DNA from: Thermoguttaceae bacterium
Lineage (GTDB): Bacteria > Planctomycetota > Planctomycetia > Pirellulales > Thermoguttaceae
Length of the DNA stretch: 64,000 bases
Direction: 5' to 3'
NCBI GenBank assembly: GCA_017550965.1
Contig: JAFZNK010000244.1
Location: forward strand, 1-64,000
This document shows positions 46,592-50,518 of this stretch, in pieces. Positions within the stretch are counted from its first letter, which is position 1. The number at the start of each line of letters is the position of its first letter. The notes under the pieces were generated by a model that was not told where the DNA came from, did not search any database, and was given only the letters and a program-made list of their open reading frames with translations. A program made the translations under genes and the position numbers.

Positions 46592-47125
46592 TTAGAATCT
46601 CCGATCGAACTCGATGTGATCGGTTACTCTCCAGACTCCGTCTTGCTCCTGCCTGAGTTCGACGCTGAAGTTGTCGATTCCTGTGAACGGATAGCCGTCG
46701 TGGCCTTTTCCGGCGGCCATTCCTCTAAATGCGACGGTCGCGCGAGGCGGAGACGTCGTTTTATTGATCTCTGTGATTCTTAAGTCGCTTACTTTCGCGC
46801 GTTCGATCGTTACGGAACCCATGCTGTCCTCAAATAATTTTCGAACGAGTACGGAATTTTTCGCGACGTACTGAAGCGCGGCGTCGGAATCGTTGTTTAA
46901 AACGGCGTTTTCCATCGCGTGGATCGTTCGACGAATCGATTTGGAGTCTGTGTCGACAAAAAAGACCAGACAGATTCCCAGGACGATCGTCAGCGCTGCG
47001 GCGACAAGCCCGAAGAGGGCGAACGATCGCTTGCCCGTTCCTTGCGCTATGGCGTAACCGACGACGAACAACGACGTTCCGGTTACAAGCCAGAAAAGAA
47101 GACTTTCTAAAAAAATGTTGGACAT
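46592..47125 (-). CDS. Membrane protein with C-terminal NTF2-like domain, unknown function
   Basis: 177 aa. Two transmembrane helices (about 5-26 and 35-56) and then an extracytoplasmic domain of about 115 residues with the helix RRTIHAMENAVLNNDSDAALQYVA and a four-strand sheet ending in WRVTDHIEF, the pattern of NTF2/SnoaL-like domains. Such domains bind ligands or form dimers. It is 46 nt downstream of the Gfo/Idh/MocA gene on the same strand. No catalytic residues are evident. Confidence 0.75.
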   Translation of the reverse strand: MSNIFLESLLFWLVTGTSLFVVGYAIAQGTGKRSFALFGLVAAALTIVLGICLVFFVDTDSKSIRRTIHAMENAVLNNDSDAALQYVAKNSVLVRKLFEDSMGSVTIERAKVSDLRITEINKTTSPPRATVAFRGMAAGKGHDGYPFTGIDNFSVELRQEQDGVWRVTDHIEFDRRF

Positions 47126-47171: not shown

Positions 47172-48521
47172 TCAAATTTGCGGATGAACCCAGGGAGCGC
47201 GATACTCTCTAACGAGCAACGCGTTCGCTTCGTCGTCGTTTTTGACTTTTCCGGCTTCGGCGTCCCATTCGAGGGATCTTCCAAGTTGTTGCGAAATGTT
47301 GCCTAAGACGCAGCAGATCGTGGAGATAGCGCCTTCTTCAATATCGGAACGCGGTCGGCCGCGATCTTCGATTCTCGCGAGGAAGTCGCGCATATGTTCG
47401 CGGACCGCCGACGCGACGTGCAATTCGATATTCGGTTCGTTTTTATCTTCCGGATACTTTTCATTTTCGTAAAGGACCTCTCCGCTGATCGTTTCGTTCT
47501 GATAATACTTGCGGAAATCGTATCCGAAAACGCTCGCTTTGAGGACGCCGTGCTCGCCGTAGAAGAATCCGCCCCAGGGATGACGTCTTTCCGGAAGATC
47601 CGCCCAGGTGCGGTGGTTCCAAATCACTTCCAGGTCGTCGTATTCAAAGATTACCGTTTGCGTGTCGGTACAGTTGCTCACGCCGCCCTTTTTAATATAT
47701 TGGCCGCCGGACGAAGAGATTCGTTTGGGATATCCCAAGTCGAGCATCCATCTTGCCATGTCGAACATATGCACGCCCATGTCGCCGAGCGTGCCGTTGC
47801 CGTATTCCATACGTTGACGCCAGGAGCGTCTTCTCAAAAACGGATAATAGGGCAACTTAGGCGCGGGGCCGCACCAGAAGTCGTAATCAAACCCTTCGGG
47901 GACTTCGGCAGGCTCCTGATTAAACGCGGGGCCGGGACCTCCGTAATAGCTGAAAATCTCGACCTGACCGACTTTTCCAAGCATGCCGGAATCGATAATT
48001 TTCTCTTTGGCTTCCATCAGGTGCGGCGTGCTTCTGCGTTGCATGCCGACCTGGACGACCGCTTTGTTCTTTCTGGCGGCGGCGAGCATCGCCTGACATT
48101 CGAGAACGTCGACGCCAATCGGTTTTTGAACGTAGACGTCGATTCCCGCTTCGACGGCGGCGATCATCGGAAGCGCATGCCAATGGTCGGGCGTGTCAAT
48201 TAGCACAATATCAAGGTTGTTCTTCGCGATCATTTCGCGGTAGTCGTGGAATTTTTCCGGTTCTTTGCCCGATTTTTGACGCGCCGCGATCATTCTGGCG
48301 GCTTCGTCGAGCGCCTCCTGATCGACGTCGCAGACGGAAACGACTTCGACGTTCGCGACCTGGATGAGACGGAACAAGTCCATTTTCCCATACCAGCCCG
48401 CGCCGATAAGACCGACTCGGTATTGTTTTTCGGAGGAGGATTCGTCGCCAAATACGGCGGGTCCCGCGGCGATAGCCGCCGAGCCCAGCCCGGCGTATTT
48501 CAGGAAGTTGCGGCGTTGCAT
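47172..48521 (-). CDS. Tat-exported Gfo/Idh/MocA family oxidoreductase
   Basis: 449 aa from ATG 48521, preceded by GAAGGA. N-terminal twin-arginine signal RRNFLKYAGLGSAAIAAG, so the folded, cofactor-loaded enzyme is exported. Rossmann motif VGLIGAGWYGKMDL, then VSVCDVD, DTPDHWHA and VQKPIG (the EKP-equivalent), then the C-terminal GFO_IDH_MocA_C-like sheet with GDMGVHMFDMARWML. These enzymes oxidise or epimerise sugars with tightly bound NAD(P). Many planctomycetes have large families of them for glycan breakdown. The substrate is unknown. It is followed by the small membrane protein gene. Confidence 0.9.
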   Translation of the reverse strand: MQRRNFLKYAGLGSAAIAAGPAVFGDESSSEKQYRVGLIGAGWYGKMDLFRLIQVANVEVVSVCDVDQEALDEAARMIAARQKSGKEPEKFHDYREMIAKNNLDIVLIDTPDHWHALPMIAAVEAGIDVYVQKPIGVDVLECQAMLAAARKNKAVVQVGMQRRSTPHLMEAKEKIIDSGMLGKVGQVEIFSYYGGPGPAFNQEPAEVPEGFDYDFWCGPAPKLPYYPFLRRRSWRQRMEYGNGTLGDMGVHMFDMARWMLDLGYPKRISSSGGQYIKKGGVSNCTDTQTVIFEYDDLEVIWNHRTWADLPERRHPWGGFFYGEHGVLKASVFGYDFRKYYQNETISGEVLYENEKYPEDKNEPNIELHVASAVREHMRDFLARIEDRGRPRSDIEEGAISTICCVLGNISQQLGRSLEWDAEAGKVKNDDEANALLVREYRAPWVHPQI

Positions 48522-48724
48522 AGTTTTTTCCTTCGCAATAACGCGCAAATATGCGCGGCGTTATAATAAAGCGATTCCCCGGCGGAAATCGTCGACGCTA
48601 TTCATTGTACGGGAACAAAGCGAGAAGCGCAACAAGAAAGAAAAGATTTTGGACGTTTGTTTTTATCCTGCCGAAACGTCGTCTGGTCGCGACCTCGAGT
48701 TTCGAACGAACCGACGCTAAAGCG

Positions 48725-48785: not shown

Positions 48786-50324
48786 TTAGTTATACCAAAA
48801 CGTCTCGACGCACGGCTGGTTTTCGTAGAGCCAATGCTTGATAAACTGTCTGTCGGGGACAAATTTCTCATTGATCGCGTCGAGGGTCGAGACGTCCTGA
48901 CCGACGACGAGCACGCAGTCGTCAGGAGAAGCGTGCGACAGAACCCACGTGATCGCTTCTTTTCGGTCTTTGATAACGTGAACGTCCTTAGGCTTTTCGA
49001 ATCCTTTGAGCAAATCGTCAAAAGCTTCGTCCTTTTGCGACTCCAGATGATTGCCGCTCGTAACGATCACGTAGTCGGCGTTTGTCTCCGCAGTTCTCCC
49101 GAGCAGCGGGCGTTTGCTGCGATCGCCGTCGTCGGGCGCGGCAAGGAGACAATAGAGCGAGCCGTGCGTAACGCGACGGAGCGTTTCGAGCGCGGCGGCA
49201 AGCGATTCGGGCGAATTGGCGCGATCAAGGAACACGTCGTACGGCTGACCGCAGTCGATGCGTTCCATTCTTCCGGGAATGTACGAAACGCGTTCGATCC
49301 CCTTGGCGACCGTTTTGAGATCGATTTTCCACGCGATAGCGAGCGCGGCGGCTTCTAAACAGTTGTAAATATGCTCTTTGCCAATGATCATCGTGTGAAT
49401 CGGGCATGCGTCGGCGCCCGCGACGACGTAGAACGTTTGGCCGGAAACGTTTCTTTCGACGGGGGTTCCGGAAACGGAACACGTCGTCGGTTGGATTCCG
49501 ACAGTCAGCGTCGGATGGGTAATGAGGTGCAACGCGGCGTCGGTAACGCGGTCGTCAAGGTTGCAAATCGCCACGCCCGTCTTTTTGAGGTAGTTGAAAA
49601 TCTGCATTTTGACGCGTCGGTACTGATCGACGGTTCTGTGAACGTCCAGATGGTCGCGGCGTAAATTCGTAAGACACACGGCGTCGAATTCAACGCCCGA
49701 GATTCTTTTTTCCGCAATGGCGACGGACGACGTCTCGACAATCGCGCATTGACACCCGATTTCGACCATTCTATCGAGCAACATGGCGAGTTCTTCAGGT
49801 TGAGGCGTCGTTTCCCTGAGAGGTTGCAACTTGGCGCCGTCGTAGACGCCGAGCGATCCGATCAAGCCGACTTTTTGGCCCGCTTCGGCGAGAACGCCGC
49901 CGAGAATGTACGACAGCGACGTTTTGCCCGCCGTTCCGGTAACGGCGATCATTCTCATTTTCCTCGCTGGGAAATCGCAAAACGCCTGACACGCTCGCGC
50001 GTAGACGGAACGGGGATCGTCGACAAAGATCTTTTGGAACGAGGAATCGCTTTCGGCGTATTGCGAATTTTGTTCCTCCGCAAACGCCGATTCCAAAGAG
50101 TTCGGGAGAACGGCGGCGACCGCGCCGTTGGCGGCGGCGATTTTAACGTCTTCCAGGGCGGCGATCGGTTCCGACTTCTTACAGACGTACAGCCCTCCCG
50201 CGAGCGGTTCGTACGCGTCGCAACTGCAAACGGCAATGTTCGCGTTACGGAAAGGGGCGACGTTTTCCCCTTCGAGCAAAACCGAAAGCGAGACTGAAAT
50301 TCCGTTTTTAGGTTGGATCGACAT
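48786..50324 (-). CDS. MurE-like Mur ligase family protein with altered substrate motifs
   Basis: 512 aa from ATG 50324, preceded by AGAGAGGT. ATP-dependent amino acid ligase fold: ATP loop VTGTAGKTS (128-136), TTPQPEELAML, ETSSVAIAEKR, the LTNLRRDHLDVHRT segment and PGRME. In MurE these steps add meso-DAP or lysine to UDP-MurNAc-Ala-Glu. Three usual MurE motifs differ: YAHTP reads DRANSPES, DNPR reads SGNHL (about 423-427), and the late KGHE reads GQDV. The domain order is complete, so the gene is probably expressed. It may be a MurE variant or a ligase for another peptide. It stands outside any dcw cluster. Confidence 0.85.
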   Translation of the reverse strand: MSIQPKNGISVSLSVLLEGENVAPFRNANIAVCSCDAYEPLAGGLYVCKKSEPIAALEDVKIAAANGAVAAVLPNSLESAFAEEQNSQYAESDSSFQKIFVDDPRSVYARACQAFCDFPARKMRMIAVTGTAGKTSLSYILGGVLAEAGQKVGLIGSLGVYDGAKLQPLRETTPQPEELAMLLDRMVEIGCQCAIVETSSVAIAEKRISGVEFDAVCLTNLRRDHLDVHRTVDQYRRVKMQIFNYLKKTGVAICNLDDRVTDAALHLITHPTLTVGIQPTTCSVSGTPVERNVSGQTFYVVAGADACPIHTMIIGKEHIYNCLEAAALAIAWKIDLKTVAKGIERVSYIPGRMERIDCGQPYDVFLDRANSPESLAAALETLRRVTHGSLYCLLAAPDDGDRSKRPLLGRTAETNADYVIVTSGNHLESQKDEAFDDLLKGFEKPKDVHVIKDRKEAITWVLSHASPDDCVLVVGQDVSTLDAINEKFVPDRQFIKHWLYENQPCVETFWYN

Positions 50325-50518
50325 ATAAAAACCTCTCTGGTTTGTTCCGACGGGAGTCGGCAATAATTGCGTTTGCGCGCTTTCTACGCGCGCCTTTGTC
50401 GAAGTATGAGAAAATAACGCGTCGACGTCAAGATTGATTTCGCTGTTTATCGGAAATTTACGTCTCCGCGCTTGCGTTGCGACGACTCTCTCCTTTGCTG
50501 GCGGCGCCCTTCGATATA

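Follow-up and report, generated by a model that had tools for sequence, protein, structure and literature searches.

The window analysed here (the whole stretch of 64,000 nucleotides from a Thermoguttaceae bacterium) carries on its minus strand a reading frame at 48786-50363 (-) that is open over its full length. An ATG at 50324 gives a protein of 512 aa plus a stop, and an alternative TTG start lies at 50363. The protein matches the MurE subfamily model TIGR01085 over the full model with 299.5 bits, above the cut-off of 257.3, and PRK00139 MurE with 307.9 bits; the Pfam matches are the middle and C-terminal Mur domains. An AlphaFold2 model built from 38 sequences reached a mean pLDDT of 91.4 and a pTM of 0.89, and its best structural matches are the MurE proteins of S. 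aureus, M. tuberculosis, and E. coli (Z 37.5-37.9), with approximately 470 residues aligned to true MurE at 22-28% identity. The window protein is a full-length three-domain MurE homologue. The reading frame, the profile scores, and the alignment thus agree with what a sequence-only reading had described at this locus, a complete Mur ligase with an intact ATP loop and catalytic core. The features are as follows, with motifs placed by alignment.

48786-50324 (-): MurE-like protein, 512 aa plus stop (profile matches; AlphaFold2 mean pLDDT 91.4)
49977-50324 (-): N-domain, residues 1-116, UDP-MurNAc signature lost; 12/116 positions invariant in the genus
50181-50228 (-): CSCDAYEPLAGGLYVC, replacing C.(C/S)DSRrv.PGDLFvA of MurE in relatives with wall genes
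49281-49976 (-): central ATPase domain, residues 117-348, under the strongest constraint; 109/232 positions invariant in the genus
49917-49940 (-): P-loop TGTAGKTS
49713-49739 (-): VETSSVAIA, catalytic/Mg Glu kept, His of EVSSH lost
49632-49676 (-): CLTNLRRDHLDVHRT, catalytic His region, kept in 19/20 genus genomes
49596-49619 (-): RRVKMQIF, carbamoylated-Lys position, kept in 19/20 genus genomes
49356-49382 (-): GKEHIYNCL, adenine-site Asn region kept
49254-49280 (-): IPGRMERID, invariant Arg kept
49200-49232 (-): FLDRANSPESL, replacing FVDYAHTPDAL; Asp kept, Tyr and His lost
49035-49067 (-): IVTSGNHLESQ, replacing IVTSDNPRTED; DAP-recognition motif lost
48879-48911 (-): LVVGQDVSTLD, replacing LIAGKGHExxQ

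Motifs, catalytic core, and gene neighbourhood

Aligned to MurE, VDYAHTP has become LDRANSP, TSDNPR has become TSGNHL, and AGKGHE has become VGQDVS. The replacement of DNPR, YAHTP, and KGHE that the sequence-only reading reported therefore stands, with GNHL, RANSP, and GQDVS in their places, and none of the three motifs was found in any of the 20 genomes of the genus. Because these substitutions are fixed across all 20 genomes, they reflect neither sequencing error nor chance. The alignment also revealed losses beyond those three. The His of EVSSH is gone (ETSSV in the window protein), as is the N-domain UDP-sugar signature DSR...GxxxDGH, for which the reference was MurE of Pirellulales relatives that keep wall genes; DAY stands for DSR, and the DGH region is absent. 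The loop itself is kept, with TGTAGKTS for TGTNGKTT, and the catalytic core is complete, comprising the P-loop Lys, the Glu, the DHLD His, the carbamoyl-Lys, the PGR Arg, and the linker Asp, with roles assigned from established knowledge of Mur ligases. This residue set is complete in 19 of the 20 genus genomes, the remaining one (G005 = L050) being without the catalytic His and the carbamoyl-Lys. Since both substrate pockets of a DAP-adding MurE have been dismantled while the ATP core is kept, the normal MurE reaction is unlikely.

The neighbourhood of the gene was not used for inferring function, since the flanking genes are only partly conserved: a Gfo/Idh/MocA gene, purC, and an M50 protease flank the MurE-like gene in some members of the genus but not in others, and the search for an operon partner shared by the whole genus found none. 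In the window, a Gfo/Idh/MocA-family oxidoreductase with a Tat-type signal is encoded at 47172-48548 (-), directly downstream of the MurE-like gene, an arrangement seen in part of the genus. At 46592-47125 (-) lies a gene for a protein of 177 aa whose N-terminus is hydrophobic and which has no Pfam match; six loci conserve it close to the MurE-like gene.

Wall genes, descent, and selection

Whether planctomycetes, and Pirellulales above all, possess peptidoglycan has been disputed for decades. The window genome comprises 4.83 Mb in 344 contigs and is 90% complete; with 19 congeners it makes up a genus set of 20 genomes, all of them MAGs of 65-91% completeness. Our searches for wall genes covered MurA, MurC/D/F, MurG, FtsW/RodA, Ddl, and penicillin-binding transpeptidases. 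Neither MurG, FtsW/RodA, nor a penicillin-binding transpeptidase was found in the 20 genus genomes, MurA searches returned nothing there beyond AroA-level matches, and Ddl searches gave only weak ATP-grasp background. MurC, MurD, and MurF are likewise absent, with at most two Mur_ligase_M proteins per genome across the 20. In wall-less genomes, MurA-like matches reached 42-82 bits, which is the level of AroA, and so were not taken as MurA. Wall-bearing genera of the same family gave matches in identical searches, which shows that the searches work in this lineage, and incompleteness of the MAGs was rejected as the cause of the missing mur genes because 20 congeneric genomes agree. The MurE-like protein is encoded in all 20 (in one frame in 18, and in two overlapping frames in G004 and G011). 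A profile search found no other murE in the window genome or in the rest of the genus, and Mur_ligase_M otherwise matched, in the window genome, a single protein (C148), which is FolC. The MurE-like protein is the sole Mur ligase of this genome besides FolC.

To place the gene, a maximum-likelihood MurE tree was built without the three motif columns. Pirellulales MurE grouped as a single clade apart from other phyla (100*), within which the window genus was nested among wall-less relatives (99*). The inner order is weakly supported, with 25 of 61 forks open, and the number of independent wall losses is consequently uncertain. Judged by this tree, the window gene is a vertical descendant and orthologue of the MurE of wall-bearing Pirellulales, and it changed after the pathway was lost. 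Horizontal acquisition of the gene received no support from the tree.

The sequence-only reading had suggested that this is a second type of MurE, alongside a canonical enzyme, and had named the cyanophycin-synthetase and MurT families for comparison. That a second, specialised MurE or a ligase of cyanophycin-synthetase or MurT type was acquired beside a normal MurE would fit the divergent motifs. However, the canonical murE that was looked for elsewhere in the genome does not appear there or in the genus, and the window protein falls inside the Pirellulales MurE clade. Cyanophycin synthetase, FPGS, and the pseudomurein ligases share the superfamily fold and the ATP core with the window protein but score much lower: the cyanophycin-synthetase model gives 102.8 bits against a cut-off of 850, approximately one-third of what the MurE models give, and MurF gives 89 bits. 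Moreover, the Pfam scan of the 512-aa protein found no ATP-grasp domain, the other half of a cyanophycin synthetase, and the tree assigns the protein to MurE. We give this explanation almost no credence.

Selection on the gene was estimated within the genus. Compared with its relatives there, the MurE-like gene has a dN/dS of 0.09-0.20, with 0.04-0.09 for the control purC, and these ratios indicate clear purifying selection. Invariant positions are concentrated in the central ATPase domain (109/232, 47%), with 44/164 in the C-domain and 12/116 in the N-domain. The C-domain diverges 1.34 times as much as the central domain in the genus, compared with ratios of 1.0 and 0.79 in wall-bearing sets. 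These figures show a shift of constraint away from the amino-acid-binding C-domain and onto the ATPase domain.

Wall-less relatives and retained dcw genes

Among 40 other Pirellulales genomes, FtsW/RodA and a transpeptidase are both missing from 21. These 21 wall-less genomes from outside the genus keep a MurE-like protein in 20 cases, a MurB-like protein in 20, and an FtsQ-like protein in all 21; MurA is found in none, and MurG-level matches and MurF in five each. The state of the motifs follows that of the pathway: DNPR is intact in 17/17 MurE rows from genomes with wall genes versus 0/25 from genomes without them, and both GHE and YAHT are intact in 17/17 versus 1/25. In the 25 rows from wall-less genomes, the P-loop is kept in 24, while the catalytic His is lost in nine and the carbamoyl-Lys in seven. 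With these residues gone from part of the 25 rows, no role shared by all of them can consist in catalysing the MurE reaction. When motif loss was tested against pathway loss with correction for phylogeny, there was one starred independent pair and the test lacked power. As the number of wall losses is poorly supported by the tree, the link between the two rests on few independent events.

Some Pirellulales copies are altered further. The MurE-like protein of G040 (L117:6857-7933) has 358 aa, with the C-terminal domain missing and a broken P-loop (SGAVGQTT), and in that of G058 the P-loop Lys has changed to Arg.

Such cases raise the question of whether the MurE-like gene is a decaying relic, kept by chance en route to becoming a pseudogene. 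Stepwise decay in several Pirellulales (loss of His or Lys, the 358-aa copy of G040, and the Lys-to-Arg change of G058) is in keeping with this, as is the reduction of MurF to its C-domain in a marine/wetland clade. However, a MurE-like gene persists in 20/20 genus and 20/21 other wall-less genomes, while every one of these genomes has lost MurA, PBP, and FtsW. The low dN/dS and the share of invariant positions in the central domain across the genus also argue against decay, and we consider a relic very improbable.

MurE is not the only dcw protein that has been retained. A MurB-like protein occurs in 19/20 genus genomes, with a dN/dS within the genus of 0.15-0.32. In the window genome its gene lies at L086:5275-6177 (-) (G000:C124), adjoining argJ and an NrdR-like gene. 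This copy and 11 other aligned copies from the genus have Arg at the catalytic Ser/Cys position; in several other wall-less Pirellulales, the Cys is kept. An FtsQ-like protein is also present in 19/20 genus genomes, and in the window genome it is a single-pass membrane protein encoded beside a miaA-like gene at L169:528-1496 (-) (G000:C323). Its name is based on gene order (after murB/ddl) and on a POTRA-like motif read by eye; in three wall-less relatives scanned with Pfam, the FtsQ-like family had no match. In most of the wall-less Pirellulales examined, the MurB-like gene is followed by the FtsQ-like gene. In G043 and G048 the three genes (MurE-, MurB-, and FtsQ-like) sit side by side, and in G055 they are close together, as if the intervening genes had been deleted.

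In the marine/wetland clade, the MurE-like gene is followed by a gene for a short protein that corresponds to the MurF C-domain alone, with the ATPase domain absent. It was found at seven loci (L056, L058-L061, L063, and L082; e.g., L061:9264-9815), the copies are 27-74% identical to that of L061, and a profile of the short protein finds the C-terminal part of MurF. A well conserved MurG-like glycosyltransferase is encoded near a degenerate MurE at four loci (L059:7841-9025, L061:from 10004, L069:9943-11238, and L082:9621-10814). MurG-like proteins also occur in G038, G041, G042, and G059, genomes in which no penicillin-binding transpeptidase or FtsW match was found.

The sequence-only reading had proposed a ligase with an altered substrate; that the normal reaction is unlikely supports the proposal in part, but addition of a new residue to a wall precursor does not accord with a genus that lacks the partner enzymes. 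A MurE of new specificity would belong to a modified wall pathway, in which it would attach another residue to a sugar-nucleotide peptide, muramyl or other. The ATP core intact in 19/20 genus genomes, the retained MurB homologue, and the MurG-like gene beside the MurE-like gene in some Pirellulales could all be accommodated by such a pathway. Yet the genus is without MurA, MurC, MurD, MurF, MurG, FtsW, and a transpeptidase, the UDP-sugar signature of the N-domain is lost, and the aligned MurB-like copies of the genus have Arg at the catalytic Cys/Ser. Consequently, we regard a new specificity on a wall precursor as improbable.

A probably repurposed MurE and its possible roles

The reading that we favour, and consider likely, is that the gene encodes the sole, vertically inherited MurE of a Thermoguttaceae lineage without peptidoglycan genes, repurposed after their loss. 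The protein resembles canonical MurE in its fold, its domain order, its P-loop, its catalytic Glu, His, Lys, Arg, and Asp, and its vertical descent, but it differs in being without DNPR, YAHTP, GKGHE, EVSSH, and DSR/DGH and in having no pathway that feeds or drains it. The window protein would still bind ATP-Mg and probably hydrolyse ATP, and in most of the genus activation of a carboxylate by phosphoryl transfer is probably retained. The acceptor and the amine would no longer be UDP-MurNAc-L-Ala-D-Glu and diaminopimelate. The protein probably acts in a non-wall role alongside the MurB-like and FtsQ-like leftovers of dcw. Several wall-less sister lineages no longer have even the catalytic His and Lys, so the role retained there would have to be non-catalytic, as in binding or as a scaffold. 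For the window genus itself, an ATP-dependent ligase or ATPase acting on another substrate and an ATP-bound scaffold appear about equally likely.

More tentatively, wall-less, FtsZ-less Pirellulales may have rebuilt their MurE-, MurB-, and FtsQ-like proteins (in some lineages with the MurG-like protein and the MurF C-domain) into a module that works without peptidoglycan, possibly in division or in growth of the envelope. In this module, MurE would be an ATP-dependent switch, scaffold, or ligase with a non-muramyl substrate. We think this extension rather unlikely. The retained genes offer a testable way into the division of FtsZ-less, apparently wall-less bacteria.

The losses of wall genes in Pirellulales are already known. 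One study describes how dcw genes have disappeared from Pirellulales, Isosphaerales, and Gemmatales, with murA, C, D, F, G, murJ, and ftsW lost and murB kept in Pirellulales (PMC12283558); the same pattern of murA, C, D, F, G, and ftsW loss with murB kept is seen here. In Planctomycetia, murB has been called “very conserved” and murE “semi-conserved” in another study (PMC10632474). The available portions of these two papers do not mention the motif state, single-copy status, selection, or constraint shift of the MurE remnant. In a literature comparison without Mahajan et al. 2020 (cell envelope remodelling in planctomycetes), no description came to light of such a remodelled, selected MurE remnant in planctomycetes, with its motifs erased and its constraint shifted. 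Evidence of DAP and a sacculus has been reported for planctomycetes, including Rhodopirellula baltica (PMC4432640), which sits uneasily with the gene losses in Pirellulales.

A gut planctomycete lineage without a wall pathway thus keeps homologues of MurE, MurB, and FtsQ, with measurable selection on MurE and MurB, and the wall-specific pockets of the retained MurE are erased. The first two will be labelled murE and murB by annotation pipelines, which implies a wall that the other genes of the genome cannot build. Plants provide a precedent for a MurE retained in another role, although most plant MurE homologues keep DNPR or DNPK (PMC12681378). As in plant MurE-like/PAP11, a MurE would have been kept for a new role after most Mur genes were lost, so that the window protein would be a bacterial counterpart of the repurposed MurE in plastids. 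The two differ in that their origins are independent, the plant proteins are longer (~770 aa), and an RNA-polymerase partner is known from the plant protein. The likeness is one of fold, in which PAP11 (8r6s) matches the model of the window protein with a Z of 33.5.
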